Shown here one piece after another: positions 1 through 28,118 of a stretch of 63,140 bases of DNA. The stretch covers positions 1 through 63,140 of the forward strand of contig CAIUPP010000017.1 in assembly GCA_903901045.1 (NCBI GenBank), given 5' to 3'. Position 1 is the stretch's first letter. Each line of letters starts with the position of its first letter. The notes below the pieces were generated by a model. It ran no database searches and was not told where the DNA came from. It saw only the letters and a program-made list of their open reading frames with translations. The position numbers and the translations under genes were made by a program. The stretch comes from an uncultured Planctomycetota bacterium (GTDB lineage Bacteria; Planctomycetota; Brocadiia; CAIUPP01).

Positions 1-1
1 C

Positions 2-136
2 ATGGCCAACCTGAGCTACACCGGGCATTGGATCCAGAACGGCGGCACCCCCTCCACCGACGGGCGCCTCAACACCCCCACCGTCTGGCACCTCTTTGAC
101 ACCGCCAAAGGCCTCGATGCCGGCGCTCCGATGTGA
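2..136 (+). CDS. C-terminal fragment of an H-X9-DG type pseudopilin
   Basis: An open frame enters from the left edge of the window and ends at TGA 134-136; 44 residues are visible. The tail reads PTVWHLFDTAKGLDAGAPM. It matches in layout the end of the complete pseudopilin at 15145-16371, which ends [15 protein letters not shown] and a few more residues. This type II secretion-like pseudopilin family (DUF1559-like) is hugely expanded in Planctomycetota, Lentisphaerota and relatives. The ATG at position 2 is probably internal, because the N-terminal prepilin motif is missing and must lie outside the window. Homology rests on the short tail only. Confidence 0.6.
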   Translation: MANLSYTGHWIQNGGTPSTDGRLNTPTVWHLFDTAKGLDAGAPM

Positions 137-344: not shown

Positions 345-1769
345 GTGAAGGTCTGGGGAGGCGGAGAGTATCTCAGCGCCGAAGAGCGGCAGCGCATTCA
401 TGCGGCCGTGCTGCGCATCCTGGAGGAGACGGGCGTGGTTATCGAGAATGACCGGCTGCTGGAGCGGCTGGCCGCCTCGGGCGCGCGCGTCGTCAAGGGG
501 GAGCAGCGCGTCATGTTCAGCCCCGCGTACATGGAGAAGTTCCTGGCCGAGTCGGTCCGCGGGAACGCGCCTCTCGGGACGGGCAAGGTGGGGGGGCTTT
601 CCGCCGTTTACTACGGCCATTATCTGAACCCCGACACCAACGAGTACGAGCCCTGGGATACCGCGCGCGTGTTGCGCTATCTCAAGATTGCGCACCACTT
701 GGAGCACACTTCACCGTTTCTGAGCGTCATCGTGCCCTTGTCGGATATCCCGGCCGATGTGTTGACGCCGTTCTATCACTATATGACTTTCAAGTTCCTG
801 GGACGCAGCGCCTGCGGGATGGACGACCCCCGCTGGACGCCGTGCATTCTGGAGATGTGCGAGGCCGCCGCGGCTGAGATGAACCGGCCCATGCGGGAGC
901 TTTTCTCCGGTTATGTGTTCCTGATTTCTCCGCTGAAGATGGGGCGTCAGGAAGCGGACATCCTGGAATATTCGACGGAGCATGGCCTGCCGCTAGGCGT
1001 CGGGCATATGACTTCCGCGGGAGGCACGGCGCCCGTGACTCTGGCGGGGGCCGTGGCGCTGCACCTGGCGGAGGAGTTCGCGGCCCACATTTTAAGGCGG
1101 GTCTGTTTCGGCGCAAAGCAACTGACCTTCAACATTTCCCTTTCCCACATGGACATGCGCACGGGGATTTTCCCCTATGGGCGGCCGGAGCGCGTGCTGG
1201 CGGCCATGGCGATGGGGGATATGGCGCGGCACTACGGCGGCCGGTTCAATCCGCCGCGCGGGCAGTCCGACGCCAAGCGCCCCTGCGCGGAAGCCGGGTT
1301 CCAGAAGGGCATGTCGGCTACGGCGATGCTGATGTCCTGCGGGTCCGCCTCCATCGCCTGCGGCGTGCTGTCGGTCGATGAAGTGTTCTCCCCGATTCAA
1401 ATGATCATCGACAATGAGATGGTGAGCGCGCTGAAATATCTGGCGCGGGGCTTCGAGGTGAACGACGAGACGCTCGCGCTGGACGTGGTCCGACAGGTGG
1501 GTCCCGGCGGGCAGTTCCTCGACACGACGCATACGGCGGAACATTGCCGGGAGGCGGTCTGGGAGCCGCATCTGTTCGCGCGCGAGATGTTCGCGAGCTG
1601 GAGCCAGAGCGGGCGGCGGATCGACGTGGACTACGCGAGGGAAGCTTACCATGACCTGGCCCAGCGCGCGCCATTGCCGGCGTGCATCTCGGAGGGTTTG
1701 GAGCGGAAGCTGCTGGACATAATTCACAAGCACACGGGCCGGCGCATGGCGCCTCTCCAGAGTGTTTGA
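345..1769 (+). CDS. MttB-superfamily corrinoid methyltransferase, non-pyrrolysine type
   Basis: The protein has 474 residues when read from GTG 345, which has AAGGAG at 333-338, six bases upstream. The frame is open back to a GTG at 312, but that start has no ribosome site. It resembles the trimethylamine:corrinoid methyltransferase family (MttB/MtgB) along its length, including an MDMRTGIFPYG segment and the late QMIIDNEMV region. No in-frame TAG is present, so this is not a pyrrolysine enzyme. Characterised non-Pyl members such as glycine betaine methyltransferase MtgB move a methyl group from a quaternary amine to a corrinoid protein. The substrate here cannot be read from sequence. It is first in a run with GH4, a second MttB homologue, a URO-D protein and beta-glucuronidase. 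No corrinoid-binding protein or reductive activator is in the window. Confidence 0.85.
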   Translation: MKVWGGGEYLSAEERQRIHAAVLRILEETGVVIENDRLLERLAASGARVVKGEQRVMFSPAYMEKFLAESVRGNAPLGTGKVGGLSAVYYGHYLNPDTNEYEPWDTARVLRYLKIAHHLEHTSPFLSVIVPLSDIPADVLTPFYHYMTFKFLGRSACGMDDPRWTPCILEMCEAAAAEMNRPMRELFSGYVFLISPLKMGRQEADILEYSTEHGLPLGVGHMTSAGGTAPVTLAGAVALHLAEEFAAHILRRVCFGAKQLTFNISLSHMDMRTGIFPYGRPERVLAAMAMGDMARHYGGRFNPPRGQSDAKRPCAEAGFQKGMSATAMLMSCGSASIACGVLSVDEVFSPIQMIIDNEMVSALKYLARGFEVNDETLALDVVRQVGPGGQFLDTTHTAEHCREAVWEPHLFAREMFASWSQSGRRIDVDYAREAYHDLAQRAPLPACISEGLERKLLDIIHKHTGRRMAPLQSV

Positions 1770-1827
1770 CGGGGCTGGGAGTGCGCGCCTCAAGCGGGCG
1801 CTTTTTCGCGGCAAAGGTGGATGACCT

Positions 1828-3174
1828 GTGAAGATTACGATCATCGGCGGGGGCAGTTACCTGTGGTCTCTGGGGTTCTGCGCCCAATTCATCCGCAGCA
1901 GCCATCTGCGGGATGTGACGGTGTGCCTGATGGACACGGACGCCGCTGCGCTCGACCTGGTCGGTTCGGCGGCGGATATTCTCAATCGCAAGCAGGGCTC
2001 CCCGGTCCGCCTGGAGCGAACGGGCGATCTGAACGCGGCGCTGGACGGCGCGCAGTTCGTGCTGGTGTCCATCTCCACGGGCGGGTTGGAGGCCATGCGC
2101 CACGACCTGGCCATTCCGGAGAAGTACGGCATCTGGCACACCGTGGGGGACACGGTCGGGCCGGGAGGATGGTCGAGAGCGGTGCGCAATATCCCGGTCT
2201 TTCACCAGATTGCGGAGCGAATGAAATCGCTCTGCCCCGGCGCGTGGCTCATCAATGTGTCCAACCCGCTGACGGTTCTGACCCGGGTGCCGCATCGCTG
2301 CTTTGGCATCCGGAGTGTGGGCATGTGTCCCGGCGTGGAGAACCAGGTCGCGAGTCTCGCGAAGCTGGCCGGCGCCGGCGAGGGCGTGAGTCCGGATTAC
2401 GTGGTCACGGGGATTGACCACGGTTCCTGGTTCACCCGTTTGCGCGCGGGCGACCGGGATATCCTGGGGTGGCTGAAGGAGGCCGGTTATTGCCGCGGCG
2501 ACGGGCTGCTGCCCAGCGAAGTCCGCACCGAGGACCCGCTGGCGGAGAACGCGCAGACGCGCGCGGCCTTTGCCGTATGGCATGAAGTGGGCTACCTGCC
2601 GAGCATCGGGGACCGGCATATCGTGGAGAATTTCCCCTGGTTCGTGGCCCAGCCGACGGCGGAGCTTCCGTTCCGGCTGAAGCGAACCAGCATCGACGAG
2701 CGGCGCGCGCGCAAGGAGCGCAACAAGACGCGGTTCGAGGCGTTTGTGAAATCGGAGGATGAGGTCGCGCTCGGCGGTCTGGGGCACGGCGACGACCCGG
2801 TGGCGCTGGTCGTGGAGTCGCTCTGCGGCTTCCGCTCGTTCCTCTACGGCTCGAACGCGCCCAACGTCGGGCAGATTCCCGGCCTGCCCGAGGGGGCGGT
2901 GGTCGAGACGCGCTGCCGGTTCGATGCGGCGGGGGTTCATCCGCTGGCCTCCCCCATGCCGGATATCCTCAAGTGCCTGACCCTGCCCACTGTGCTGCGG
3001 CAGGAGATGATCATTGACATTGCGCTGGAAGGGACGTTCGACCAGTTGGTTGCGCTGATTCTGACCGATCCGCTGTGCAGCCGCATGCCCATCGGCCGGT
3101 GCCGTGAAATGGCACGGGAATTGTTGACCGCCAATCGCGAGTGGATCCGAAATCCCCGCCTGTTGGAATTCTAA
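1828..3174 (+). CDS. Glycoside hydrolase family 4 (NAD- and metal-dependent)
   Basis: This 448-residue protein starts at GTG 1828 with AAAGGTGG just upstream. A Rossmann NAD site opens it (IIGGGSYLW, residues 4-12). The family segment GDTVGPGGWSRAVRNIPV follows, then INVSNPLT. Cys167 (in GMCPGVE) and His198 (in GIDHGSW) fall where GH4 enzymes bind their divalent metal. GH4 members cleave alpha- or beta-linked glucosides, galactosides, glucuronides or galacturonides by an oxidation-elimination mechanism using NAD+. There is no signal peptide, so it acts on imported oligosaccharides in the cytoplasm. Substrate specificity is unknown, but the beta-glucuronidase 2.7 kb downstream in the same run makes a uronoside plausible. 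Length is normal for the family. Confidence 0.88.
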   Translation: MKITIIGGGSYLWSLGFCAQFIRSSHLRDVTVCLMDTDAAALDLVGSAADILNRKQGSPVRLERTGDLNAALDGAQFVLVSISTGGLEAMRHDLAIPEKYGIWHTVGDTVGPGGWSRAVRNIPVFHQIAERMKSLCPGAWLINVSNPLTVLTRVPHRCFGIRSVGMCPGVENQVASLAKLAGAGEGVSPDYVVTGIDHGSWFTRLRAGDRDILGWLKEAGYCRGDGLLPSEVRTEDPLAENAQTRAAFAVWHEVGYLPSIGDRHIVENFPWFVAQPTAELPFRLKRTSIDERRARKERNKTRFEAFVKSEDEVALGGLGHGDDPVALVVESLCGFRSFLYGSNAPNVGQIPGLPEGAVVETRCRFDAAGVHPLASPMPDILKCLTLPTVLRQEMIIDIALEGTFDQLVALILTDPLCSRMPIGRCREMARELLTANREWIRNPRLLEF

Positions 3175-3189
3175 CCAAGGAGACTTCGC

Positions 3190-4680
3190 TTGAAGACTGC
3201 CGTGACGCCTCTGCGTTTTCTTTCCCCGGAAGAGATGGAGACGATCCATCGCAACGCGCTGCGCATCCTGTCCGAAATCGGGATGAAGATCGACCATGAC
3301 GCGGCGCTGGACTACCTCCTGGCCGCCGGCTGCAAGGTGGACCGGGAGAAGCGGCGCGTCCTCTTCCCCGCGCAAGTGGTGGAGGGGGCCGTGAAGAAGC
3401 TGCGAAAGGACTACGCCGCGCGGGAGGCGCCGGAGCGCATGTCCGTGCGCTACTCGCACGTCCGTTTCCGCAAGGAGCCTTTCCAGGTCCACACCGATTT
3501 CACCGTCAGCGCCGGCGGCTATTGCATCTTCATCCACGACCTGAACGGAGTGCGCCGTCCCGCCACTTTGCAGGACACGCGCGACGCGCTGAAACTGGTC
3601 GCGCAACTCGACCAGATCGCCTACACCGGCCTTCCCGTCGCGGCGCAGGACGTGCCGCTGCCGATCCGGCAGATTCGCATGGCGGCCGAACTGGTCAAGC
3701 ACACCGACAAGTTCGGCGGCATCGAGGCGCTGGACCCGTTCGACATCGAATACATCTGCCGCATCGGCGAGGTCGTCCGGGGCGGGCGCGAGGAGCTGCG
3801 GAAGCGCCCGATCCTGATCGGGTACGCCGAAGCGCGCACGCCGCTGAGCATCGACCCCAACATGTGCGAGGTGTTGATTGAATACGTCCGGCGCGGGATG
3901 CCTCAGTCGCTGGACACGATGCCGAACGCCGGGGCGACCGCGCCGATGAACCCCGCCGGCGCGCTGGCGCTGGGCATCGCCGAGACCCTCGGCGGCATGG
4001 TGCTGGCGTATGCGGTGGACCGCGGCGCGATCGTTACGCTCGATGTGACGCCCTCCTTCAGCGACATGCGCACGGGGATTTTCAAGTATGCGGGAGCGGA
4101 GCGCACCTCGCTGCTGGGCGCGCGCATTCAGATGATCAGCGAGTATTACGGCTGCCCGAGCGGCGTTCACGGCGGCAAGACCGACGCCTGCCTGCCGGGG
4201 GTGCGCGTCGGCGTGGAGAAGGGGATCTCCATGCTCGGCCCCATCCTGTGCGGCGCGGTCGGCTTCGGCACGGTCGGGCATATCGAAAACGCCATCACTT
4301 TCTCTCCCATCCAGTTGGTGATGGACAACGAAATCGCCCGCTACGTCCGCCGCGTGGTGCAGGGCTTCGAGGTGAGCGACGAGTCCGTCAATTTCGATCT
4401 GATCCGGCGCGTCGGGATCGGCGGCAACTACCTGACGGAGATGGAGACGGCCGAGGGGTTCCGCGATTTCCTGAACCTTTCTCCCTTCTTCGGCGTGGAG
4501 CCATGGGGGTCGAGCGACGAGGCCCGCGAGGCGCGGCGCTGGGAGAAGATGGCCGCCGACAAGGTGCGCGAGCTCCTGGCCAGCGATGTTCCCTCGCCGC
4601 TCTCCCCGGAGCAGACGCGCGCGGTGGATGGCATCGTCGCCGAAGCGGAAGCCAGGTTGCGCGAGCAGGGGCGGATGTAA
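3190..4680 (+). CDS. Second MttB-superfamily methyltransferase, non-pyrrolysine type
   Basis: A 496-residue paralogue of the protein at 345-1769. It starts at TTG 3190 with AAGGAG at 3177-3182, only 15 bases after the GH4 stop. Shared blocks include SDMRTGIFKYAG, the GINP-like NPAGALALGIAE stretch and QLVMDNEIARYV. It opens with LSPEEMETIHRNALRIL, the usual MttB N-terminal helix. There is no amber codon in frame. The stop at 4678-4680 is followed directly by the ATG of the URO-D gene, so the two are almost certainly translationally coupled. An MttB homologue paired with a URO-D methyltransferase is the classic arrangement for corrinoid-dependent methyl transfer (substrate to corrinoid, then corrinoid to an acceptor). 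Two MttB copies separated by a glycosidase is unusual. Confidence 0.85.
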   Translation: MKTAVTPLRFLSPEEMETIHRNALRILSEIGMKIDHDAALDYLLAAGCKVDREKRRVLFPAQVVEGAVKKLRKDYAAREAPERMSVRYSHVRFRKEPFQVHTDFTVSAGGYCIFIHDLNGVRRPATLQDTRDALKLVAQLDQIAYTGLPVAAQDVPLPIRQIRMAAELVKHTDKFGGIEALDPFDIEYICRIGEVVRGGREELRKRPILIGYAEARTPLSIDPNMCEVLIEYVRRGMPQSLDTMPNAGATAPMNPAGALALGIAETLGGMVLAYAVDRGAIVTLDVTPSFSDMRTGIFKYAGAERTSLLGARIQMISEYYGCPSGVHGGKTDACLPGVRVGVEKGISMLGPILCGAVGFGTVGHIENAITFSPIQLVMDNEIARYVRRVVQGFEVSDESVNFDLIRRVGIGGNYLTEMETAEGFRDFLNLSPFFGVEPWGSSDEAREARRWEKMAADKVRELLASDVPSPLSPEQTRAVDGIVAEAEARLREQGRM

Positions 4681-5862
4681 ATGAAGAGCGCGCAAAAGCT
4701 GTGGACGTCGAAGGAGCGCGTGCGCGCAGCCCTGCGCCACGAGGAGCCCGACTGCGTGCCGGTGGGCGAGACGGGCATTGACGCGCATATCACCGAGCGC
4801 ATTCTGGGACGCCGCACGCATTACCGGGGGGGCTGGTGGAGCCAGATCGCCTCGTGGGAAGGACGCGCCGCGGAAGTGATGGAGAGTCACAAGCGCGACA
4901 TGGTCGAGCTCTATACGAAGCTCGACTACGACGTGGTTCCGGTCTTTCTGGGCGCCGACGTCTCCATGGCCAGGGCGGTGGAAGTCAAACGCATCGACGA
5001 CGAAACCGTGGAGGTCTCGGGGGTCCGTTATGTCCTGAGTTCGCAGACGAACAAGTACGTGGCGGTCAAATCTTCCTATCCCGCGCAGGACTTCACGCAG
5101 TGGAAGGAGGGGCCGCCGTACCAGTCTCCCTCCGACGCGCAATGGGAACTCTTCGACCATTGCGTCAGCCATCTCGGCGACCGGTTTCTGCTCGCGCGCG
5201 ACCTGGGCGGCTTCTTTCACGGCGACGAGGCTTTTCTCATGGCCTGCTACGATCATCCCGGGATCATCGCCCGGATGAATGCCTACGCCTGCGAGCACGA
5301 CTGCCGCCGGGCGCAGGATTTCATCCGCCATGGCGCGGACGCCGTCTTCATCGGGGGAGATTACTGCGACAGCCGCTCTCCGATGATCAGCCCCGCGAAG
5401 TTCCGCGAGTTGATTTTCCCCTGGCTGAAGGAACTCTGTGCCGCCATCCACAAGGCGGGCGGCTACGCCGTGAAGCACACCGACGGTCACACCTGGCCGC
5501 TGCTGGACATGTTCGCCGAGGCGGGGGTGGACATTTTGCACGCCATCCAGCCCTCCGCCGGCATGGACATCAAGAAGATGAAGAAGCGCTATGGCAAGAC
5601 CTTCACTTTCCTGGGAGCCATCGACTGCGACACGCTTGTCCGCGGCACCCCGGAGCAGATCCGCAACGAGGTGGACTACAACCTGCGCTGGGCCTCCCCG
5701 GGGGGCGGGCATATTCTCTGCTCGGGCAATACCATCCAGTACGGCGTGCCCTTCGAGAATTTCATGGCCATGCTCGGGCGGCTGCGCGAGAAGGGGAGCT
5801 ACCCCATTGATTTCCAGGGGCTTCATCCGCAATCCGTGTACGAACAGGCCAGGGCGTCCTGA
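4681..5862 (+). CDS. URO-D-fold protein, MtaA/MtbA-like methyltransferase candidate
   Basis: This 393-residue protein starts at the ATG that abuts the stop of the preceding MttB gene. It has the uroporphyrinogen decarboxylase TIM-barrel pattern: ERVRAALRHEEPDCVPVGE at the N-terminus, then IFIGGDY-like and FLGAIDCDTLVRGTPEQI segments. It lacks the heme-pathway HemE signature, so it is not HemE. In MtaA/MtbA/CmuA-type methyltransferases the zinc site is H-x-C plus a later Cys. Here His266 is kept (VKHTDGH), the first Cys position reads Asp, and a late Cys347 is present (HILCSGN). It probably acts with its MttB partner, but it could carry out another reaction of this large fold. Confidence 0.75.
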   Translation: MKSAQKLWTSKERVRAALRHEEPDCVPVGETGIDAHITERILGRRTHYRGGWWSQIASWEGRAAEVMESHKRDMVELYTKLDYDVVPVFLGADVSMARAVEVKRIDDETVEVSGVRYVLSSQTNKYVAVKSSYPAQDFTQWKEGPPYQSPSDAQWELFDHCVSHLGDRFLLARDLGGFFHGDEAFLMACYDHPGIIARMNAYACEHDCRRAQDFIRHGADAVFIGGDYCDSRSPMISPAKFRELIFPWLKELCAAIHKAGGYAVKHTDGHTWPLLDMFAEAGVDILHAIQPSAGMDIKKMKKRYGKTFTFLGAIDCDTLVRGTPEQIRNEVDYNLRWASPGGGHILCSGNTIQYGVPFENFMAMLGRLREKGSYPIDFQGLHPQSVYEQARAS

Positions 5863-5878
5863 AAACGAGGTAACCGCC

Positions 5879-7648
5879 GTGCTATATCCCCGCGAAAGCG
5901 AAACGCGCTTTGTGAAAGATCTCTCCGGCCTCTGGCGGTTCCGGTGCGACCGCGCCGAGGAGGGCTTTGCGAAGCGATGGTTCGATGCGCCCCTGCGCGA
6001 CCCGATCCTGATGCCGGTGCCGGCCAGCTACAACGACATCACGCAGGATGTCACGCTGCGCGACCACGTCGGCTGGGTGTGGTACGAGACCACGCTCTTC
6101 GCCCCGGCGAGTTGGCAGGGTCAGAGCGTGCTGCTGCGTTTCGGCAGCGCCACGCACCACGCCACGGCCTGGGTGAACGGGCGCGAGGTGGTCTCACACA
6201 AGGGGGGGTACATGCCGTTCGAGGCGGAGATCGCCGGGCATCTCCATTACGGCGAGGAAAACCGCATCACGGTGGCGGTCAGCAACATGCTGGATTGGAC
6301 GACCATCCCGCCCGGACAGGTCAAGACGCCGCCGGAGGGGCCGCGCTACCCGAAGGGGTTCAAGTTTCAGGAAATTTACCAGGACTTCTTCAACTACTCC
6401 GGTCTGCACCGTCCCGTGCGACTCGTGGTGCGGCCGAAGGACCATATCGAGGATATCGCCGTCAGGACCGGCGTGCGCGGGCGCGACGCGCAGGTGTTCT
6501 ACGCCGTGACGCTCTCCGGAGGCCGGCGCGATGTGCGCGTCAGGCTCCTGGACGAGAAGGGCAGAGTCGTCGCGCGCGGCGAAGGGCTCAAGGGAAGACT
6601 CCCGGTGAAGAACGCCCGCCTCTGGTTCCCCGGCAAGGCGTACCTCTATACGCTGGAGGTCGAAATGCCGGCGGCAGGGCGCCCCGAGGACATCTACCGC
6701 CAGCCCGTCGGAATCCGGACTATCAAGGTCACGAAGAAGCAGTTCCGGATCAACGGCAAGCCCTTCTATTTCAAGGGGTTCGGCAAGCACGAGGACGCGG
6801 ACATCCGCGGCAAAGGGCACGACGATGCGACGGATCTGAAGGATTTCAATCTCCTGGGCTGGATCGGCGCGAACTCCTTCCGCACCTCGCACTACCCCTA
6901 CAGCGAGGAGATCATGGAGCTTGCGGACCGGCTGGGGGTGGCGGTGATCGACGAGACGCCCGCCGTCGGCCTGAACTATTTCCCTCACGGCAAGACGTTC
7001 CAGCCCGACCGCGTGGGGGAGGGCTCGCAGGCGCATCTGCTGCAGGTCATTCGCGAGATGGTCGAGCGCGACCGCAACCACCCCTGCGTGGTGATGTGGT
7101 GCGTGGCAAACGAGGCCGCGACCGAGGAGCCGGAGTCCGTCCCCTACTTCCGCCCCTGTCTCGATCTTTTCCGCAAGCTCGATTCCACGCGTCCCGTGTC
7201 CATCGTCACCTGCTGCGACCCCGACACCTGCCTCTGCACGGGGATGGCCGACGTGGTCTGCGTCAACCGCTACTACTCCTGGTACAACGACCCGGGCCGG
7301 CTCGACCTGGTGGAGCACCAACTTGAGCATAACCTGCGCGCGTGGCACAAGAAGTTCGGGCGGCCGGTGATTGTGACGGAGTACGGCGCCGACGCCGTGG
7401 CCGGCCTTCATGCCGACCCGCCGGTGATGTTCAGCGAGGAATACCAGGTGGAGATGCTCGACCGGTTCCACCGCGTCTTCGACAAGCTCGATTTCATGGC
7501 GGGGGAACATGTCTGGAATTTCGCCGACTTCATGACGCGCCAGGAAATCCGGCGCGTCGTGGGGAACCGCAAGGGGGTGTTCACCCGCGAGCGGCAGCCG
7601 AAGATGATCGCCCATGCCCTTCGCCGGCGATGGACGCGCCTGAAGTAA
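5879..7648 (+). CDS. uidA: Beta-glucuronidase, GH2
   Basis: 589 residues from GTG 5879, with ACGAGG eight bases upstream. The frame is open much further upstream, but the family N-terminus LYPRESETRFVKDLSGLW starts here. A sugar-binding jelly-roll, an Ig-like domain and a TIM barrel follow. The acid/base Glu412 lies in CVANEA and the nucleophile Glu501 in VTEYGAD, matching E. coli GUS Glu413 and Glu504. The N-x-K carboxylate-recognition motif that separates glucuronidases from galactosidases is present as Asn563-Arg-Lys565 (GNRKGVFTR). The C-terminal FSEEYQ and VWNFADFMT blocks match E. coli UidA closely. No signal peptide, so it is cytoplasmic and hydrolyses imported beta-D-glucuronides. It is the last gene of this plus-strand run and converges with the GH35-like gene nine bases away. 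Confidence 0.95.
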   Translation: MLYPRESETRFVKDLSGLWRFRCDRAEEGFAKRWFDAPLRDPILMPVPASYNDITQDVTLRDHVGWVWYETTLFAPASWQGQSVLLRFGSATHHATAWVNGREVVSHKGGYMPFEAEIAGHLHYGEENRITVAVSNMLDWTTIPPGQVKTPPEGPRYPKGFKFQEIYQDFFNYSGLHRPVRLVVRPKDHIEDIAVRTGVRGRDAQVFYAVTLSGGRRDVRVRLLDEKGRVVARGEGLKGRLPVKNARLWFPGKAYLYTLEVEMPAAGRPEDIYRQPVGIRTIKVTKKQFRINGKPFYFKGFGKHEDADIRGKGHDDATDLKDFNLLGWIGANSFRTSHYPYSEEIMELADRLGVAVIDETPAVGLNYFPHGKTFQPDRVGEGSQAHLLQVIREMVERDRNHPCVVMWCVANEAATEEPESVPYFRPCLDLFRKLDSTRPVSIVTCCDPDTCLCTGMADVVCVNRYYSWYNDPGRLDLVEHQLEHNLRAWHKKFGRPVIVTEYGADAVAGLHADPPVMFSEEYQVEMLDRFHRVFDKLDFMAGEHVWNFADFMTRQEIRRVVGNRKGVFTRERQPKMIAHALRRRWTRLK

Positions 7649-7657
7649 AGGCGAGCC

Positions 7658-9241
7658 CTAAGGTGTGGCCATGACCACGCGCACCGCGCCGACGTCCGGC
7701 CACACCCAGATGCCCCAGTCGCTCTCGTCGCCGCTGCGCGTGCGCCGGGCCTGCCAATCCCCCGCGTCGCTGAACCGCCCCTCTTCCACCGTCGCAAAAT
7801 CGCCGCAGGACATGGCCAGCGGGTCGATATAGCGCCACAGCGCGCGCTCGTCCGTCGCTTCCTTCCGCACGATGAGCAGCTTGAATGCGCTGCCGGCGAC
7901 GAAGAATTCCCGCGGTCCTTCCTGGATCACCAGCCCGCGTCCGCGTTCCGGGGAGCGCGGCTTGGCCGGGTGGTGGTAATCACCCCGGATGGACTCGAAG
8001 CGCACCAGCCCCGCATACTCGCCGAGGTCGATGTACTGCTCCAGCGCTCCCTCGTCCTGCACGACGGCATGCACTTGCCCGCCGGCATGGCGCCGCACGA
8101 TGAGCGGGAGCATCGCGGCGACGATGCGAGCGCTGTCCACGGCCGCCTGCGCCTCCGGTTTCACCGTCCCCTCCGCGTCCAGCATGCTTTCGACGCCGAA
8201 CATGCCGTAGCCGACCGCATGGTGCTGCGCGATGGCATAGAAGATGTGGCGCGAGCTGGATTCATCGATCCCCGATTCCGGAATGAACAAGGGGTTGTCG
8301 GGCCGCGCATAGATGCCGCAGTGCATGCAGAACGATTTCGTGCTTTGACTGTAGATATCCGGCGCGATGAGGGCGATCTCCGGCGCGGCCCACTTCCAGA
8401 GGTCCAGCACCTTGGTGGTGGGACCGCCCGAGGGATAGCACAGGCCGGCGATGTCGAAGCCGGCATGGTCGTTCCAGACGTTCACGTACATCGGCAGCGC
8501 GTACTCCTTCTTCCCCGCGGCCGCCACGGCGTTGATGTAACGTGCGATGTGCCAGGCGCTGAAATACTCCGGCGCATGGCGGGCGCCGAACACCTCCGCC
8601 CAATGCCCTTTCGCCCGGCCCCCCGCTTTCTTCCATGTCTCGTGCGGGCAGGTCCCCTGCGCCGCGGCCAGGCGCTTCATCAACGCGGCCGGCACGGGCG
8701 CATTGAAGAGGCGTTCCGCCTCCGCGCCATGGTCGCGCTGCGCGCCTGTGCGCATGCCCGGCTCGTTCTGCACCTGGACGGCCAGCACGGTCCCGTCGGC
8801 GTTTTGCCGCTTGAGATGCCGAAGCAGCGCGGCGAAGGCGCGCGAGTCCGCGGCCAGCGTCTCGGGGCAGTGCTCGGAAAGCACCGGCGTCGCCACGCCA
8901 TCGTGGGTCAGCACCCGCCAGAACCGCTTCGGGTTGTTCTTCACCCAAAGCGGAGAGTACTTCATGGCGCCGTTCTTCCACGTCCCGAACCAAAGCAGGA
9001 TCACACGCAGTTTCCGCGCGCGCGCTCCCGACAAGATGTCGTCCACCATGCTGAAATCGAAAGCGCCTTCGGCTGGCTCCACGCGCTCCCAGTAAACGGG
9101 CACTTCCGCCGTGTTGGCCTGCATCGCGGCGCACGCTTTCCAGAAGGACGCCAGTTCATCCGGTGAATAGGCGCTCGAATTGTGGGCCTGGCCCCCGAGC
9201 GGAAAGAAGGGCTTCCCATCGACCTGAAAGATCGTTTCCAT
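7658..9241 (-). CDS. GH35-like beta-galactosidase (DUF5597-type)
   Basis: 527 residues from ATG 9241, where the domain starts (METIFQVDGKPFFPLGGQAH). The frame opens 13 codons earlier, but those residues are not family-like. The TIM barrel contains PVYWERVEPAEGAFDF and LLWFGTWKNG. The acid/base Glu is in VQVQNEPGM and the likely nucleophile Glu in PLFIPESG. These match bacterial GH35 beta-galactosidases with a C-terminal DUF5597-type beta domain, as found in xyloglucan-utilisation loci. No clear signal peptide is seen. It is transcribed towards the beta-glucuronidase gene and probably belongs with the large gene upstream of it (9419-11827) in one minus-strand transcript. Confidence 0.75.
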   Translation of the reverse strand: METIFQVDGKPFFPLGGQAHNSSAYSPDELASFWKACAAMQANTAEVPVYWERVEPAEGAFDFSMVDDILSGARARKLRVILLWFGTWKNGAMKYSPLWVKNNPKRFWRVLTHDGVATPVLSEHCPETLAADSRAFAALLRHLKRQNADGTVLAVQVQNEPGMRTGAQRDHGAEAERLFNAPVPAALMKRLAAAQGTCPHETWKKAGGRAKGHWAEVFGARHAPEYFSAWHIARYINAVAAAGKKEYALPMYVNVWNDHAGFDIAGLCYPSGGPTTKVLDLWKWAAPEIALIAPDIYSQSTKSFCMHCGIYARPDNPLFIPESGIDESSSRHIFYAIAQHHAVGYGMFGVESMLDAEGTVKPEAQAAVDSARIVAAMLPLIVRRHAGGQVHAVVQDEGALEQYIDLGEYAGLVRFESIRGDYHHPAKPRSPERGRGLVIQEGPREFFVAGSAFKLLIVRKEATDERALWRYIDPLAMSCGDFATVEEGRFSDAGDWQARRTRSGDESDWGIWVWPDVGAVRVVMATP

Positions 9242-9418
9242 CTGGTTTTCTTTCGTTCCTCGCATGTCAGCGCCGGTCACCGCCGGCCGGACTTTCGTCG
9301 TCCGCGGGGCGACGAAGTTGAATCAATTGTACTTCGGCGCTCAGTGCGCCACAAGCATCTGCGCCCCTGCGCGATGCCGCCGTGCGGGCATCACCAGCCC
9401 ACACGGCCACTCGGTTTT

Positions 9419-11827
9419 CTACCGCGCGCCTCCCGGCATTTCCGGGCCGTCCGGATACAGCCATTTCATCCCTTTGACCGTGGCGTTCAGAGTTCGGCCG
9501 CCCGCGAAGCAGATGCGCACGGAATGCCCGGCGCGCAAGTTGAGATGAACGCGAGAGACGATCTCCTCGGAGGGGGTGACGATCATCTGTCCCTCCGCGC
9601 CGGCGCTCACGCGACAGTTCCATGCGGCGATGCGGCCATCCTCGCGCTCCACGACGTACGCGCTGGTCAGGGCGACTTCCTCAAGGCACTTGAAGATCTC
9701 ATGAACATCGTTGTCACAGCAGCCGCCATCTCCGCCCACCGGGCGCGCAGAGCCGTCGATCGGGCCCCAGACCGCGGGCCAGGATTCCCCCGGCGGCAGG
9801 GCGGCGTCACTGGCTCCGCCCCAGTAACCGGTGACCCACGTGTCGGGTCTGGCGCGGTACCACCCGCTGATCATCGGCAGGTATTGCTCGCCGATAACGC
9901 GCGGGACGCTGCGTCCCTTGCCGGGACTGTCCGGGAATTCCTCGAAATGCAGCGCTTCGACATGGGGGTCCGGCACGAAAGCCCAGCGCAGTTCGCCGGT
10001 GTCCGCGTCAATCAACTGCGCGCAGGCGCCGAGCCCGTTCATGGCTTGCCGGAGGTGCTCCTCCTCGCCGGTCAGTTGGTAGAGGTAGTGCAGTCCGTAG
10101 ATCCGCCATGCGCTCCAACCGTGCGGTGAATTGAGCATGTTCGGCGTGGTGAGGATGTCGTACTGCGCCTCCCAGAAGCGCAGGCTCGCACCGTTCATCC
10201 GGCTGTCCGGCACAAGAATCTGCGACAGGCATCGGTGTCCCCCGGCCAGGTGTGCCGCGGCCTGGAGGTATTTCTGCCGGAGGATGGGATCCTCCTGCCA
10301 CAGGGCGAACTGCGCCAGTTGCGAATAGCTGCAGGAGATCATGCCGTCTTCGTAGGTCATCTCCCCTTCGGTTTGGATGTTGTCGAGATTCCGAGCGAGT
10401 TCATCCATTGCGCGGCGCACGGAATCGTAGTGGCGGTCGTAGCGCGCCTTCCACGCGGCGTCCGAAGCGGCCAGCTTCTTCTCCTCCGCAAGGACTTCCA
10501 GTATCGATTTGCCGATATACACGACCGAGGTGTAGTGCACGCTCCCGTTGCGGTAAGCGCCGTCGGCCGACTGCCTGGTCAGCAGGAAATCGGCGAGGGA
10601 GGCGGCGAATTCGAGGTCCCGGATGTCCCCGGTGGCGCGATACCGCGCCGCCATGAGCCCGGCGGCGCAGGCGTGGTTCTGGACGCGATTCTGCCAGGAG
10701 GTCGGCGTCATGGTCTGCATGTCGTACATCAATGGCCAGATTTCCTCGAACTTGGCTTTTGCCCGGGCGTCGAGCGCCGAGTCCGGGAAGTGCCGCTGCG
10801 CGAGGAAGCAGGAGAAGAAGCCGTACCAGCTTTCGGTATGCGAAGAGGCCTTCTGCGGTTTGGCCAGCGCCTCGGCGCGCGCGCGTTTCAAGTACCACGA
10901 CCAGGGACGCCGGACGGTCACGATGGCTTCCGCGATTTTGCCGTTGGGAGAAGTGGCCCGCAGAGTGTAGAGGCCGGGGGTGTCGCCGGGATGGAAGGGC
11001 GCGGCCGGTTCTATGGGAGAGAGGCCGCCCTCGGGGGTCAGGAGCTCCACGCGGGAAGGGCCTCCGTGGAGCGTCAAGTTAATCGCCTCGCCCGGCTCCA
11101 CGGTGCAGCGGTCGCACTCCAGCATGGGCGCGCCTGTGGCGGCAGCGAGGCGCGGCTTGATCAACTGGAGCGATGGAATTTCTTCGAGGAGGATCGTCCA
11201 TTGCCGTTGCTCGCCGGGCTGGAGAGTGTCCAAGTTCTGCGGGTGACGCGTCGGCAACGGGCCGGGATGGAGCAGGTCGAGGCAAAGCGTGTAGATCCGA
11301 TGCTCCAGCCCCTTGTAGTCCAGATGCCAGGAGGCGACGGCGTCGGGGGAGGCGATGCCGAGAATGCGGCCGCGCGGCGTCATCGCGTAGCCCCAGAAGT
11401 GCGTTTTCTCGCAGCGCAGGAGCGTCGGGAAGAACTTGTCGTTCCAGTCCGGAAACTTCTCCATGTAAGTATCCAGACCCAGCCGCAAACCCGCGCGCAA
11501 CGGATGAGCCACCCCGGCGCCCATGTTGCGAATGGCGGCGGTCAGCGCCAGTTGATCGCCGCGGAGGTCATAGCGCAGGGAGAAGCGCAGTGATCCGAGA
11601 TCCCCCTCGAATTTCAGGCGCGCGCGGTCGGTGATTCGGAGGGGGACCGGTTCTTCGCTCCCCCGGGAGCGGCAGTACCACGCCGGGCCACGGTGCGCAT
11701 CAGACCGGAAATCGATGCGCTTCCACCCGCTCTCGCAAGCGCCCTCCAACGATTCCAGGTGACCTCCGTCGGCGGCGACGGTGGCGCGTAACCTGGACGT
11801 GGCGACAGTGACGGAGTTCGAAGTCAT
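9419..11827 (-). CDS. Large protein with N-terminal beta domain and helical-toroid domain
   Basis: 802 residues from ATG 11827, with AAAGGAATGAGG just upstream. I do not recognise a named family with certainty. Residues 1-300 are beta-rich and look like a carbohydrate-active-enzyme N-terminal sandwich. An Ig-like segment follows (about 230-310). Residues 330-790 are mostly helical, with repeated aromatic and acidic turns (SHTESWYGFFSCFLAQ, NRVQNHACAAGLMAARY, DEMISCSYSQLAQFALW-like) typical of (alpha/alpha)6 or 7 toroids of glycosidases, polysaccharide lyases and epimerases. No signal peptide is visible. It lies upstream of the GH35-like gene in the same orientation, which supports a glycan-processing role. 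The reaction is unknown. Confidence 0.6.
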   Translation of the reverse strand: MTSNSVTVATSRLRATVAADGGHLESLEGACESGWKRIDFRSDAHRGPAWYCRSRGSEEPVPLRITDRARLKFEGDLGSLRFSLRYDLRGDQLALTAAIRNMGAGVAHPLRAGLRLGLDTYMEKFPDWNDKFFPTLLRCEKTHFWGYAMTPRGRILGIASPDAVASWHLDYKGLEHRIYTLCLDLLHPGPLPTRHPQNLDTLQPGEQRQWTILLEEIPSLQLIKPRLAAATGAPMLECDRCTVEPGEAINLTLHGGPSRVELLTPEGGLSPIEPAAPFHPGDTPGLYTLRATSPNGKIAEAIVTVRRPWSWYLKRARAEALAKPQKASSHTESWYGFFSCFLAQRHFPDSALDARAKAKFEEIWPLMYDMQTMTPTSWQNRVQNHACAAGLMAARYRATGDIRDLEFAASLADFLLTRQSADGAYRNGSVHYTSVVYIGKSILEVLAEEKKLAASDAAWKARYDRHYDSVRRAMDELARNLDNIQTEGEMTYEDGMISCSYSQLAQFALWQEDPILRQKYLQAAAHLAGGHRCLSQILVPDSRMNGASLRFWEAQYDILTTPNMLNSPHGWSAWRIYGLHYLYQLTGEEEHLRQAMNGLGACAQLIDADTGELRWAFVPDPHVEALHFEEFPDSPGKGRSVPRVIGEQYLPMISGWYRARPDTWVTGYWGGASDAALPPGESWPAVWGPIDGSARPVGGDGGCCDNDVHEIFKCLEEVALTSAYVVEREDGRIAAWNCRVSAGAEGQMIVTPSEEIVSRVHLNLRAGHSVRICFAGGRTLNATVKGMKWLYPDGPEMPGGAR

Positions 11828-12304: not shown

Positions 12305-13564
12305 ATGCTGTATTGCGAACGGCTCTTCAATGATCTGAATCGTTTGGCGGACTCGCCGGATGGGGAGAAGCGGCTCATCCGCGAGTTGGCCACGAGGGTG
12401 GCGGCTCTCGCCCGCGCTCCGCGCATGCGGGCTATCAACCAGCGCTGGCGCGATGTCGTGGCGCGGCGACGCCCGGACCGGCCGCCGGTCTGGTGCAATC
12501 CCGTTGGCTGCTGGAGCGAACTGTTGCCGGAGGCCAAGCTGGCCTGCCGGACCCCCGCCTTTCAGGAGCTTGAGGTCCACTTCAAGCGGTTGCTGATCAA
12601 GGATGCCATTGGCGACGACACGCCTGTCAATGAGTACTTCATGGTCAACGCGGTGTTTGACGTCAGTCCCGCCAACACGTGGGGCCTCGACATCGAGTGC
12701 GAGAAGACGGAAACCAAAGGCGACGCCTGGCGCTACAAGCCCGCCCTGCGCTGTGCGGCGGACTTCGCCCGGCTGGTCGTTCCGCGCTACCAGATCAACC
12801 GCGCGGCCACCGAGGCGGCGCGCGCGCGGCTTGCCGACATTCTGGGTGAAGCGATGCCGGTCCGGGTCAGTCCGATCACCGGCTATTACAGCGGCGCAAC
12901 CCTTTGCCAGCCGGCCGTCGGCCTGCGCGGCATGGAGCAAATACTGATCGACATGGCCGAGTCGCCCGAGTTGGTGCATCGGCTGTTGGAGACCGTGTGC
13001 CGGGGCGAGATGGCCCGGCTCGATGCCATCGAACTTGCCGGCGGGATTCTTCCCAACACCGATTGTGCCATGTTCCTGAGCGACCCATTGCGCGAGAACG
13101 TCTCGGGGAACTTCGATTTGCGGGACTGCTGGGGGCACGGCAATTCCCAGGAATTCGACACGGTGGGCCCGGCGATGTTCAACGAGTTCCTGCTGGACTA
13201 CCAGAAGAGACTCTTCCTGCGCTTCGGCGCGGTCGGCTACGGCTGCTGCGAGAACTTGACGCGGAAACTTGACCACGTCCTGACTATCCCGAACCTGCGT
13301 CTTCTGACGTGCAGCGCCTGGACCGACCTGTCCGTTCTGGTCGACAAGGTCGGCGATCGCTGCTGCATTATGTGGCGTCACAAGGCCACGGACGTGGTGT
13401 GCCCGGACGATACAGTCAAACTCAAGGCGCAAATCGTCGCGCAGGCGGAACGGCTGAAGGGGTGCCACTATCAAGCTGTCCTGCGCGAGTTGCAGACGCT
13501 CATGGGCCACCCGCAGCGCCTGAGCGAGTGGACGCGCCTGACGATGGAAGCGGTGTCGAGGTAG
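12305..13564 (+). CDS. URO-D-fold protein, divergent, function unknown
   Basis: 419 residues from ATG 12305, with AAAGGA nine bases upstream; an in-frame ATG at 12287 is the alternative. The fold pattern is that of the uroporphyrinogen decarboxylase superfamily: PPVWCNPVGCWSELLPEA near the N-terminus, RVSPITGYYSGA in the middle and a C-terminal helical run ELQTLMGHPQRLSEW. Where MtaA-type enzymes have the zinc H-x-C it shows YGCCENL (Gly, Cys, Cys), with more Cys residues later (GDRCCIMWRH), so any metal site would differ. It stands alone between a divergent CAZyme-like gene and a convergent regulator. Substrate unknown. Confidence 0.6.
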   Translation: MLYCERLFNDLNRLADSPDGEKRLIRELATRVAALARAPRMRAINQRWRDVVARRRPDRPPVWCNPVGCWSELLPEAKLACRTPAFQELEVHFKRLLIKDAIGDDTPVNEYFMVNAVFDVSPANTWGLDIECEKTETKGDAWRYKPALRCAADFARLVVPRYQINRAATEAARARLADILGEAMPVRVSPITGYYSGATLCQPAVGLRGMEQILIDMAESPELVHRLLETVCRGEMARLDAIELAGGILPNTDCAMFLSDPLRENVSGNFDLRDCWGHGNSQEFDTVGPAMFNEFLLDYQKRLFLRFGAVGYGCCENLTRKLDHVLTIPNLRLLTCSAWTDLSVLVDKVGDRCCIMWRHKATDVVCPDDTVKLKAQIVAQAERLKGCHYQAVLRELQTLMGHPQRLSEWTRLTMEAVSR

Positions 13565-13664: not shown

Positions 13665-14771
13665 TTACGCGCCCTCGCGCGGGGTTCGGATTGCGCGGGC
13701 ATAGCCGAGGGTCGTATCGCGAAACACCAGGGGGGGATCGAGGACAACGCGTTGCCGGAAGGGGGAGGAGGGACGCGAAATGGCCTCCGTGAGCATGGTG
13801 ATCGCTTCGCGCGCGATCTGCTCCTTCGGCTGGCGAACGGTTGTCAACGGCGGGGCCGCCTTCAACGCGTCGGCGACGTCGTCAAAGCCGATCAGCGCGA
13901 GGTCCTCCGGAATTCGAATGCCGAACTCCCGGGCGGCCATCATAATTCCCAAGGCGCAGAAGTCGTTGTGCGCAAGAATGCCGTCGGGCACGCGGCCGGC
14001 GGCGAACTCGCGCGAGGCCGTCTCATGGCCTGACTCCACCGTGCCCCATGCGGGCACAACAAACGTTTCGAGAGAAACCGTGGGCTGGCATTCCTGGACG
14101 AAGCGGATGATCCCCGGCAACCTGCCCCAGGCTCCCTTGTCCTCCGGACTGCCATAGTAGCGGATGGTGCGGCAGCCGATCTGGTGGAGGTGTTTTGTCG
14201 CCGCGTAGGTGCCTGCGCCCATATCCACCGTCACGAAGTTCGCCGGGATGGGGTCCCGGTTCTCGATGAACACCGTTGGACGGGTCACATCGGCGAATGC
14301 GGGGGCGATCTTGTCATAGCAGCCGAGCAACGGTCCGCAAATCAATCCGTCAAAAAGGTGCGTCTCAAGAACTCTTTTCAGTTCTTCGACGCTGGGCACA
14401 TTGGCCAGGGTGCCCATGCTGCAAAAGGCGGTGGCGAAGCCCGCCTGGAACAGTTGCCGCTGCAGCGCGATCGCCTCCTCCTGGAAGAAGCCTCGCTGGT
14501 CCAGCCATATCAAGAGCAGCGTTCCCAGTCGCTTCCTGGCGCCCTCATGGTCCGTCAAGAGCCTTCTGACGATGGCGCGTTTGCCCTGCCTTTTTTCGAG
14601 CAGGCCGTCCGTCACAAGAATGTCCAGCGCCTTTCGCACGGTGCCAACGCTGACGCTGAGTGTCCCCGCGAGTTCCGATTCCGATGGCAGCAGATCGCCA
14701 TGCTTGCAGGATGCGCCTATTCTCTCCCGCAACTCATTGACGGCAAATTCGTATTTCTTCTGCGTGACCAT
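13665..14771 (-). CDS. GntR-HTH / LacI-type ligand-binding hybrid transcription regulator
   Basis: 368 residues from ATG 14771. Residues 5-75 form a winged helix-turn-helix of GntR type (GDLLPSESELAGTLSVSVGT, VRKALDILVTDGLLEKRQGK). Residues 85-360 are a periplasmic-binding-protein-like sugar-sensing domain of LacI/PurR type (GCRTIRYYGSPEDKG, DGILAHNDFCALGIMMAA, ALIGFDDVADALKAAPPLTT). The build is that of AraR-type repressors, which release DNA on binding a sugar. It is divergent from the pseudopilin gene at 15145. Its own promoter (14846-14874) abuts a near-palindrome (14828-14845) that would make a good autoregulatory operator. The inducer is unknown, though a sugar from the surrounding glycan locus is likely. 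Confidence 0.88.
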   Translation of the reverse strand: MVTQKKYEFAVNELRERIGASCKHGDLLPSESELAGTLSVSVGTVRKALDILVTDGLLEKRQGKRAIVRRLLTDHEGARKRLGTLLLIWLDQRGFFQEEAIALQRQLFQAGFATAFCSMGTLANVPSVEELKRVLETHLFDGLICGPLLGCYDKIAPAFADVTRPTVFIENRDPIPANFVTVDMGAGTYAATKHLHQIGCRTIRYYGSPEDKGAWGRLPGIIRFVQECQPTVSLETFVVPAWGTVESGHETASREFAAGRVPDGILAHNDFCALGIMMAAREFGIRIPEDLALIGFDDVADALKAAPPLTTVRQPKEQIAREAITMLTEAISRPSSPFRQRVVLDPPLVFRDTTLGYARAIRTPREGA

Positions 14772-15144: not shown

Positions 15145-16371
15145 ATGCGAGGACAGCGGAATTGGCGCTCGGCGTTTACGCTGATTGAGTTGTTAGTCGT
15201 GATCGCGATCATAGCGATTCTGGCCGGGATGCTGCTGCCCGCGCTGGCGGCGGCGCGGGAGAAGGCGCGGCGCACGGCGTGCTTGAACAACCTGAGCCAG
15301 ATGTCCAAGGGCTTCGCGAGTTACTTGTCGGACTACTCGGACTACGTGCCGTTCAACGTAACGTGGAATCTGGATTTTGATATCACACGCGGCGCACTCA
15401 CGGATGTAGGGTTGTACTCCGACCCCAAAGGTACGGCGCCTCATGATGTAATCCGGGCCTGGCCGGTCTGTGATACCAGCATTCTGGGGTACCTTTCATA
15501 TGCGGCGCGCTACAGCGCTGCCGGCTGGGGACGCAGCCTTATGCGGTGCATCGCTCAGGGCCAAATCGACACCAGCAGAGGCACGCCGAATTACGCCCTC
15601 GGCAACCTCGCCATGGTTCCGCATGGCGTGGGCTTCCTGGCCAGTTGCGGATACATCGGCAACCTCGGGGTGTATTTCTGCCCGACCGCCAGCAACATGC
15701 CGGATGAACTGTACATCAAGCTCGGCAGTCAGTCCTCCTACAGCAACAGGGACAACGGCGCGACGACGATGGAAGAACTGAAAGCGGCCGGAGGAACCGA
15801 TTCGCGAATCCTCACGCACGGCAACTGGAGCAACGTCGGCAAGATGTGGGCCCCCAACGCGACCTGGGCGACTGAGCTGCAATATACGCGACGACTCCTC
15901 TCCAACTATTCCTATCGGTTGATGGCGGCGTATGACATCAACAACGGCCAGGTCGGTAACGTCTTTGCCGGCAGCTATACCATGCCGGTCCCCTGGACGA
16001 ATCCGCGCCAGATGCATAACCAATGGCTGCCGTACTTCAAGACGAGCAAGCAACTGGGAGGGCGCGCTTTTCTCGCCGACTCGTTCGACCGTCCCGACGT
16101 ATGCGAGGTCCCTGCCTTGGCAAACAGGCCCGGCGTCGGCTGGTACGGTCATCGCGACGGGTACAACATCCTCTATGGCGACTTCAGCGCGAAGTGGTAC
16201 GGCGATTCCCAGCAGAAGCTGATGTGGTGGGACCAGGGGGCCAGCGAGTTTACGGCGGGATATGTGTCGTCGAACGGAGCCACGGCTTCTTCCGTGTCCG
16301 TAACGCCGGACATCTGGCACCAGTTTGACGTGGGCGCTGGAGTTGATGTCGGGACCACCCGAGGCTGGTAA
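15145..16371 (+). CDS. Type II secretion-like pseudopilin, H-X9-DG family
   Basis: 408 residues from ATG 15145, with GGAGG at 15130-15134; an in-frame ATG at 15061 would add a tail that is not pilin-like. The prepilin motif [20 protein letters not shown] starts near residue 9, with the Glu+5-type residue of class III prepilin cleavage, followed by [20 protein letters not shown]. The C-terminal signature is [18 protein letters not shown], an H-X9-D motif whose final Gly is Phe. These proteins are processed by prepilin peptidase and are thought to form or decorate a pseudopilus at the envelope. Their many copies next to CAZyme loci suggest substrate capture or display. It is probably co-regulated with the secreted proteins that follow. 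Confidence 0.88.
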
Positions 16372-24433: not shown

Positions 24434-25504
24434 CTACGCCGCGCGCGCCGCCTCAATCATCGCCAGGAGGTTCTCCACGGGGGCATCCGCCTGGATCGTG
24501 TGGGAGCCGGCCAGGAGGTAGCCGCCGTCGCGGCCGACCACGTCGATGATCCGGCGCACGTGCCGGCGGACTTCCTCGGGGGATGCGTGGACCAGCAGGT
24601 GCTGAATATCGATGCCGCCGTCGAACGTCAGCCGGTCTCCAAACTCGGCCTTGAGGCGGAACGGGTCCATGTTCGTTGCCAGCGGCTGGACGGGGTTCAG
24701 GATGTCCACGCCGATCTCGATGAGGTCGGGAATGATGGGGTAAACCGCTCCGCAGGAGTGGTAGCGCACCTTGGCGCCGTGCTGGTGAATCAGTTTGCAG
24801 ACCTGCGCCATGCGCGGCTTGATGAGTTCGCGCCACATCGTGGGCGACATCAGAAGCGCGCGCTGTGAGGCGACGTCGTCGTTGTACTCGTAGATCGCGT
24901 ATTCTCCCTTGCCCGCCTCCAGGGTCCGCCGGACCAGCGTCAGGAGGCACTCCATGATGTGGTCCATGAGGCAGTTGGCGAACTCCGGGTTCAGCGTCAG
25001 GTCGAGCATGAGGCGATCCATCCCGCGCATGAAGTGCGCGATTTCAAAGACGCCGCGGCAGCGCGCCCAGGTGGCTTTGTGCCGGTTCGCCGCCAGCGCG
25101 GCCGGAATCGTCGAGAAGTCCCACAGATCCAGTTGAGGCCAGGGATAGCGGTTCAGTTCGTCGAGATGCTCGGCCTCCCGCAGCGGGGGGATGCCCGCCA
25201 GCTCGACATAGTTCTGGTATTCCGTGCGGACTTCGCGGAAGGGGACGCGGTAGATGTCCAGGAGGAGCCCCTCGGGCGTGACCTCGATGGTCGGGTCGGC
25301 GTAGAGCTTGTCGGAAGCCGGGCGGCGAATGGACGGGCGGACGGTGACGAGGTCCACGCCGATCCACTCGACAACTTCCGGCTCGGTCATGCCCAGGCGT
25401 TCCTTCAACTTCAGCATGGCGGCGGGAGCGAAACGCAGGCTGATGGGCACGCGGTCGGGTTGGGTGTGGTTGACCGCCGCGAGGACGCGTTCTCTGGATG
25501 TCAT
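24434..25504 (-). CDS. URO-D-fold protein, methyltransferase-like
   Basis: 356 residues from ATG 25504, with GAGGAAGG upstream. The pattern is MTSRERVLAAVNHTQPDRVP at the N-terminus and ILNPVQPLATNMDPFRLKAE near the end, that of corrinoid or URO-D-like proteins that are not HemE. The zinc-type H-x-C is present (KVRYHSCGAVY), but where a second Cys is expected the sequence reads LLAGSHTIQ (Ala). That tail is otherwise colinear with ILCSGNTIQ of the protein at 4681-5862. Methyl transfer is possible, but so is a different lyase reaction. The two beta-propeller genes follow upstream on the same strand with a 54-base gap. Confidence 0.72.
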   Translation of the reverse strand: MTSRERVLAAVNHTQPDRVPISLRFAPAAMLKLKERLGMTEPEVVEWIGVDLVTVRPSIRRPASDKLYADPTIEVTPEGLLLDIYRVPFREVRTEYQNYVELAGIPPLREAEHLDELNRYPWPQLDLWDFSTIPAALAANRHKATWARCRGVFEIAHFMRGMDRLMLDLTLNPEFANCLMDHIMECLLTLVRRTLEAGKGEYAIYEYNDDVASQRALLMSPTMWRELIKPRMAQVCKLIHQHGAKVRYHSCGAVYPIIPDLIEIGVDILNPVQPLATNMDPFRLKAEFGDRLTFDGGIDIQHLLVHASPEEVRRHVRRIIDVVGRDGGYLLAGSHTIQADAPVENLLAMIEAARAA

Positions 25505-25558
25505 TCGGGGACCTTCCTCTGAGGGGTTTGGCGCTATCGGGACTCGGATGGCAGGCGC

Positions 25559-26734: not shown

Positions 26735-26744
26735 CGGGTCCTCT

Positions 26745-27884: not shown

Positions 27885-28021
27885 CTCTTGGCCCTCGTGA
27901 GGCGGTGGAGTCCATCGAAACGCCCGGCTGTGTCAAGCGCCGCGCGAATAAATGGAATGGTACACTTTGTTTTCCGCGAATGCCAGCGAGGTCGAGGTCG
28001 CGTTGCGGGAGTTGGAGCCGG

Positions 28022-28040
28022 TTTTGCTCTGTTGAAACCA
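28022..28040. repeat. GCTCTGTTGAAACCA intergenic repeat, copy 1
   Basis: TTTTGCTCTGTTGAAACCA. The same block recurs near 43105, 47971 (degenerate), 49114 and 63081, in three of those cases running into a CGTCCCG-type palindrome. Confidence 0.6.
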
Positions 28041-28075
28041 GCCCGTCGGCGCTGCCTTTGGCGTGAGACAGGGTT

Positions 28076-28112
28076 GGGACACAAAACTTTCCGAAGGAAA
28101 GCATTGTGTCCC
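28076..28112. repeat. GGGACACAA palindrome family, copy 1
   Basis: GGGACACAAAACTTTCC (28076-28092), loop GAA, GGAAAGCATTGTGTCCC (28096-28112). It lies seven bases past the Gfo/Idh/MocA stop. The left arm has AAAAC and the right arm would need GTTTT but reads GCATT, so the stem is imperfect at two adjacent positions. Confidence 0.85.
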
Positions 28113-28118
28113 GATCAC

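Follow-up and report, generated by a model that had tools for sequence, protein, structure and literature searches.

An operon of an uncultured Planctomycetota bacterium combines MttB-superfamily and URO-D proteins with two glycosidases and may act on methylated uronosides

The DNA analyzed here, hereafter the window, is contig 17 (CAIUPP010000017.1) in its full length of 63,140 bases. It belongs to a draft genome of an uncultured Planctomycetota bacterium (GCA_903901045.1, designated G000; 4.77 Mb in 154 contigs, with an estimated completeness of 94%). As listed in Table 1, five genes on the forward strand occupy positions 345 to 7648, encoding in this order an MttB-superfamily protein (MttB1), a glycoside hydrolase of family 4 (GH4), a second MttB-superfamily protein (MttB2), a URO-D superfamily protein, and a GH2 beta-glucuronidase (GUS). 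The intergenic gaps along the operon are 58, 15, 0, and 16 bp, the stop codon of MttB2 directly abutting the start of the URO-D gene. Translation starts at GTG in MttB1, GH4, and GUS, at ATG in URO-D, and at TTG in MttB2, where the start agrees with those of the orthologues. Plausible ribosome-binding sites precede MttB1 (AAGGAG), MttB2 (AAGGAG), and GUS (ACGAGG), while that of GH4 is weak. With the exception of the GH4 site, these data bear out the first-pass annotation, which had described five tightly spaced same-strand genes with ribosome sites and a URO-D gene abutting an MttB stop, and we regard the genes as one operon. Since the upstream reading frame ends at base 135, before MttB1, the contig carries the operon in full, with no truncation at its front. 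Loss of a corrinoid gene from the operon at the contig edge was considered and rejected, because the upstream gene is unrelated and ends ahead of MttB1.

Pfam family PF06253 (cut-off, 25 bits) covers most of both MttB proteins, placing them in the superfamily, and alignment shows that both retain the core motifs found in MttB and MtgB. Neither gene contains an internal stop or an in-frame amber codon at the position of Pyl334 (pyrrolysine; numbering from PMC9842639), as had been stated in the earlier annotation. At this column, all six MttB2 relatives carry a lysine (HGGKTD type), and MttB1 carries a glutamine. The two proteins resemble the quaternary-amine demethylases MtgB, MtpB, MtcB, MtyB, and MthB in the PF06253 fold, the lack of pyrrolysine, and the core motifs, with 24 to 29% identity to MtgB. 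They differ in having no linked corrinoid protein or MtqA, in falling outside the tree half of the characterized proteins, in their glycosidase context, and in the residue at the pyrrolysine position (Lys or Gln). Pyrrolysine- or selenocysteine-containing MttBs were also considered for this genome and rejected, the flagged in-frame stops of two other MttB matches (L002 and L008) preceding the start codons. The substrates on which pyrrolysine-free MttB proteins have been tested are quaternary amines, and what most of these proteins do is a stated open question (PMC12155760).

The URO-D protein of the operon is recognized by Pfam in its C-terminal half only (PF01208, 82.6 bits). It shares this half with MtaA, MtbA, MtvB, and CdmB, and like them it adjoins a methyltransferase-I-type gene; unlike them, it carries HTDG in place of HxCG, its N-terminal half is unrecognized, and a corrinoid gene is not nearby. 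Because known O-demethylases are members of the URO-D superfamily (PMC13222342), the URO-D gene is a better candidate for action on a methyl ether. AlphaFold models of MttB2 and URO-D, built from 4 to 5 sequences, reached a mean predicted local distance difference test score of only 43 and 49, respectively.

GUS scored 798 bits against the NCBIfam NF007538 beta-glucuronidase equivalog (cut-off, 544 bits) and retains the two catalytic glutamates and the N-x-K uronate motif (NEA, EYGAD, N-x-K), so that the specificity residues reported earlier are indeed present. Its best match in the PDB is 6XXW, of the Escherichia coli UidA family (about 54% identity, 310 of 572 residues), with which it shares the catalytic and uronate motifs; no notable difference was seen, and GUS is an ordinary member of that family. 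GH4 has both Pfam domains of its family, the NAD motif GGGS, and the metal-binding Cys and His. The closest solved relative is the LplD alpha-galacturonidase (3FEF), which is about 29% identical and shares GGGS and the metal Cys and His. Where LplD has C-H-E, the window enzyme has C-P-G, a motif common to the GH4 proteins of the Planctomycetes genome GWC2_45_44 and of G079, and we know of no tested member of this subgroup. A uronate-specific GUS, together with a uronidase as the closest GH4 structure, supports a uronoside as the substrate.

As to the source of such a uronoside, the first-pass annotation had named glucuronoxylan, which is a poor fit for GUS, as the 4-O-methylglucuronate of this xylan is attached by an alpha linkage. 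The glycans of arabinogalactan proteins are attacked by GH35 galactosidases and alpha-rhamnosidases too, and the GH35-type gene next to the operon and a GH106-like gene in the GWC2_45_44 locus would match this enzyme set. Arabinogalactan proteins carry 4-O-methyl-beta-glucuronic acid (PMC4052742). It is plausible that a beta-linked uronate of the arabinogalactan type, which may bear a 4-O-methyl group, is the substrate; it fits GUS better than glucuronoxylan does.

The neighborhoods of related genes were then compared among sampled genomes (G numbers; C numbers denote contigs, those without a G prefix being of this genome, and L numbers denote extracted loci). GWC2_45_44 shows the order GH4, MttB2, URO-D found in the window, with GH4-MttB2 gaps of 14 to 16 bp; its GH4 and MttB2 are 56% and 69% identical to those of the window, and its URO-D only 22%. 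This locus adjoins the GH106-like gene and a weak GH2-like gene. In G393, an MttB1-type gene (42% identical to MttB1) lies 13 bp downstream of a GH4 gene that belongs to a different subgroup (24% identical), and the pairing there is thus probably independent. On C60 of this genome, a URO-D gene is directly followed by a GH4 gene. In all, GH4 stands beside MttB or URO-D at four places in three genomes. A rough estimate, not taken from a full gene list, puts the number of GH4-MttB adjacencies expected by chance in the sampled genomes at a few tenths.

The other MttB2 loci have different neighbors: a gene of the MocA family together with a beta-helix protein in G208, a zinc-type dehydrogenase in G392 (same family as this genome), URO-Ds near glycosyltransferase genes in G031, and nothing of note in a Firestonebacteria genome. 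No glycosidase was detected beside the MttB2 orthologues that lack GH4, in a scan with local profiles made from few or single sequences, which distant family members can escape. Likewise, no MttB or URO-D gene lies within the flanks examined of the GH4 orthologues in G079, G110, G056, G141, and G171. A conserved neighborhood of MttB/URO-D genes with glycosidases, on which the earlier interpretation had been staked, was therefore found in part: GH4 recurs, but four of the six MttB2 loci are without it and GUS does not recur. The conserved partner of MttB2 is GH4 and not GUS. Elsewhere in the genome, MttB genes have GH84-, GH2-, or GH42-type genes nearby, an observation that is purely descriptive. 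The closest paralogue of MttB1 (39%) is found on C60 (L063, C60:112000-131000) in an operon of URO-D, MttB, and creatininase-family genes at locus positions 8258 to 11781. A further locus (L066, C120:22000-41900) holds a large cluster in which two MttBs are accompanied by URO-Ds, transketolase halves, an SDR, a class III aminotransferase, and MocA genes.

A corrinoid kit is present elsewhere in the genome, as the first-pass annotation had allowed for after missing it in the window. Two corrinoid proteins with D-x-H-x-x-G are encoded on C123 and C79, one RACo/RamA-type activase on C29, and one pterin methyltransferase of the MtqA/AcsE type, a candidate tetrahydrofolate methyltransferase, on C124. 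Several of the corrinoid genes inspected (C123, G397:C46, G031:C140, and G122:C1) lie beside two URO-Ds that are strong or of the HxCG type. On C123, the corrinoid gene, two HxCG URO-Ds, and a 4Fe-4S protein gene form a module directly beside selA and selB (L057, C123:100000-119000, locus positions 2289 to 9750), and the corrinoid gene with two URO-Ds was seen again in G397, G031, and G122. In the vicinity of relatives of the window MttBs, no corrinoid gene was found except at far paralogues, namely in G400:C111 and, with an activase gene in its stead, in G031. At the latter locus, an MttB gene and a RACo-type activase gene abut each other in divergent orientation (L150, G031:C120, 5350 to 8832). 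The former, from the same class, is a cluster of canonical MttB, corrinoid protein, and URO-D genes (L125, 4949 to 10048). Both this canonical mttB-mttC-URO-D operon and the window operon hold MttB and URO-D genes, but the corrinoid gene stands between the two in G400, whereas GH4 and GUS take its place in the window.

Ten sampled relatives or MttB2-bearing genomes with expanded URO-D families contain 16 to 58 URO-Ds and 0 to 7 MttBs, and always 1 or 2 corrinoid proteins. In addition, G122 has two URO-Ds, which are adjacent, and one corrinoid protein, and G088 has no URO-D, MttB, or corrinoid protein. Since URO-Ds range from 16 to 68 when this genome is included while corrinoid proteins stay at 1 or 2, URO-D numbers have grown without corrinoid proteins. 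The expansion of URO-D and MttB decoupled from corrinoid proteins, together with the repeated pairing with NAD-dependent sugar enzymes, is the part of most interest. Our literature search on URO-D expansion, corrinoid demethylases for methoxy sugars, and joint analysis of PF06253 and PF01208 found nothing relevant.

What is observed is how the operon is organized, which families its enzymes belong to, that the genome as a whole has a corrinoid kit, and that GH4 recurs with MttB or URO-D. On this basis, we tentatively favor, as the best if unproven reading, one catabolic operon that demethylates and cleaves a uronic-acid glycoside with the corrinoid protein supplied in trans; methyl transfer as such, the use of a corrinoid in trans, and the action on a methylated glycoside are its conjectural parts. 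The glycoside would be taken into the cytoplasm, where MttB1, MttB2, and URO-D may remove a methyl group from it or from its aglycone. The methyl group would move onto a corrinoid protein encoded on C123 or C79. The one activase of the RACo type would maintain this protein in reduced form, and the MtqA-like protein may pass the methyl group on to tetrahydrofolate. GH4 and GUS would cut the glycosidic bonds, and a beta-linked uronate of the kind considered above is a plausible substrate. Speculatively, the MttB2 lysine could act as a proton donor to a leaving oxygen or as a binding site for a carboxylate.

Several observations weigh against this proposal. The operon and the window contain no corrinoid protein gene, both such genes lying on other contigs, and the genome has 68 URO-D matches (65 above the cut-off) and 12 MttBs against 2 corrinoid proteins. 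Both window MttBs fall in one half of the MttB tree (48 rows, midpoint root; basal split support 93/82), and MttB, MtgB, and the G400 gene linked to a corrinoid gene (L125) lie in the other. In URO-D, the cysteine of the HxC metal motif is missing, and the aligned C-terminal position has no Cys either, H-x-C ... C being the metal ligands of URO-Ds of the MtaA/CmuA type. The earlier claim of a corrinoid role for these proteins thus found no support in gene linkage, in the tree, or in the URO-D motif. Moreover, GH4 is found beside MttB2 (upstream of it) in only two of six loci, the window and GWC2_45_44, GUS was found beside MttB2 in none of the others, and the quaternary amines established as substrates of such MttBs are disfavored by the lysine in the pocket. 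Overall, the earlier interpretation is partly supported.

In a rival reading, the MttBs and URO-Ds of this lineage would mostly have left corrinoid chemistry, their barrel being reused for corrinoid-free steps on sugars or sugar acids, such as lyase, hydrolase, or epimerase-like reactions beside NAD-dependent GH4 and MocA, with a few corrinoid-linked copies keeping the old role. We consider this only slightly less probable than the favored reading. It agrees with the constant 1 or 2 corrinoid proteins in the 11 expanded genomes and the single one accompanying the adjacent URO-Ds of G122, with several sampled URO-Ds that have HxDG or no HxCG motif, with MttBs beside MocA genes, with the invariant lysine of the MttB2 clade, and with a second URO-D cluster of the window that includes an HpcH-type aldolase, two MocA dehydrogenases, a GntR/FCD regulator, and an amidohydrolase. 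However, the MttB core motifs are conserved, an activase gene stands beside an MttB in G031, and, to our knowledge, a corrinoid is used by every characterized MttB and by the non-HemE URO-Ds. Sharing is also documented: one corrinoid protein of Eubacterium limosum, MtqC, serves several MttBs (PMC12155760), and the MtgB genes of Ruegeria pomeroyi are unlinked to MtgC (PMC12478193). Sequence alone cannot decide between sharing of a corrinoid in trans and loss of corrinoid chemistry.

An operon that frees a betaine-like aglycone from a glycoside or glucuronide, followed by demethylation by the MttBs, would draw on the established chemistry of MttBs without pyrrolysine (PMC12155760), and a related URO-D-MttB operon in the genome ends with a creatininase-family gene. 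We judge it improbable, as no betaine transporter or amine gene was recognized in the window and the MttB2 clade has a lysine at the pyrrolysine position; nor do we know of betaine glucuronides as common substrates. An equally low probability is given to a chance or loosely coregulated cluster of independent neighbors, the genome having many glycosidases, URO-Ds, and MttBs. Four of the six MttB2 loci have no GH4, the closest GH4 orthologue (G079, 59%) has no MttB within about 8 to 10 kb, and given about 15 GH4 candidates at first look and 12 MttBs, isolated cases of adjacency could arise. This reading is opposed by the spacing of 0 to 58 bp, the abutting stop and start, the four places in three genomes, and the chance expectation estimated above.

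The operon and the recurring GH4 pairing point to concrete candidate substrates, uronosides with and without methyl ethers. If the favored proposal of demethylation with a corrinoid in trans holds, sugar methyl ethers would join the compounds demethylated anaerobically; the literature search found no described enzyme for this reaction. More broadly, with a probability that we place somewhat short of even, the MttB and URO-D families of this lineage may be a large unrecognized enzyme set for carbohydrate catabolism, comprising either the first corrinoid-dependent methoxy-sugar demethylases, with as many as about 80 substrate proteins sharing 1 or 2 corrinoid proteins, or barrel enzymes that work on uronosides by a new, corrinoid-free chemistry. 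The 16 to 68 URO-Ds against 1 or 2 corrinoid proteins are a separate puzzle, and bulk annotation of these proteins as B12 methyltransferases is unsafe.

Table 1. Features of the operon and its surroundings in the window
Feature	Position	Strand	Evidence
3' end of an unrelated gene, probably pilin-type DUF1559	1..135	+	C-terminal sequence
MttB1, 474 aa, pyrrolysine-free protein of the MttB superfamily with methyltransferase fold	345..1769	+	PF06253 182 bits, tree, alignment
GH4 NAD/metal-type glycosidase, unusual C-P-G motif	1828..3174	+	PF02056/PF11975, PDB search, alignment
MttB2, MttB superfamily, 496 aa, lysine at the MttB pyrrolysine position	3190..4680	+	PF06253 217 bits
URO-D superfamily protein, 393 aa, HTDG replacing the HxCG metal motif	4681..5862	+	PF01208 82.6 bits, alignments
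GUS, GH2 beta-glucuronidase, 589 aa, signal peptide not obvious	5879..7648	+	NF007538 798 bits, PDB, motifs
GH35-type beta-galactosidase with DUF5597, convergent to the operon	7658..9265	-	Pfam
Protein of 802 aa, possibly carbohydrate-related, with no match in Pfam or the PDB	9419..11827	-	Pfam, PDB searches
Very divergent URO-D-like protein	12305..13564	+	PF01208 19 bits, under the Pfam cut-off; without PDB relative
GntR/LacI-type regulator (Peripla_BP_3), plausible local regulator	13665..14771	-	Pfam

Among the surrounding genes, the 802-aa protein adjoins the GH35 enzyme and is a possible unrecognized glycosidase. Another DUF1559/N_methyl protein is encoded at 15145 to 16368. The second catabolic cluster of the window, on the reverse strand at 24434 to 34765, has its two URO-D genes at 24434 to 25504 and 30971 to 32077; it comprises, besides the two MocA-family dehydrogenases, the HpcH/HpaI aldolase, the GntR/FCD regulator, and the amidohydrolase, two proteins without a family, and looks like a cluster for sugar-acid breakdown.

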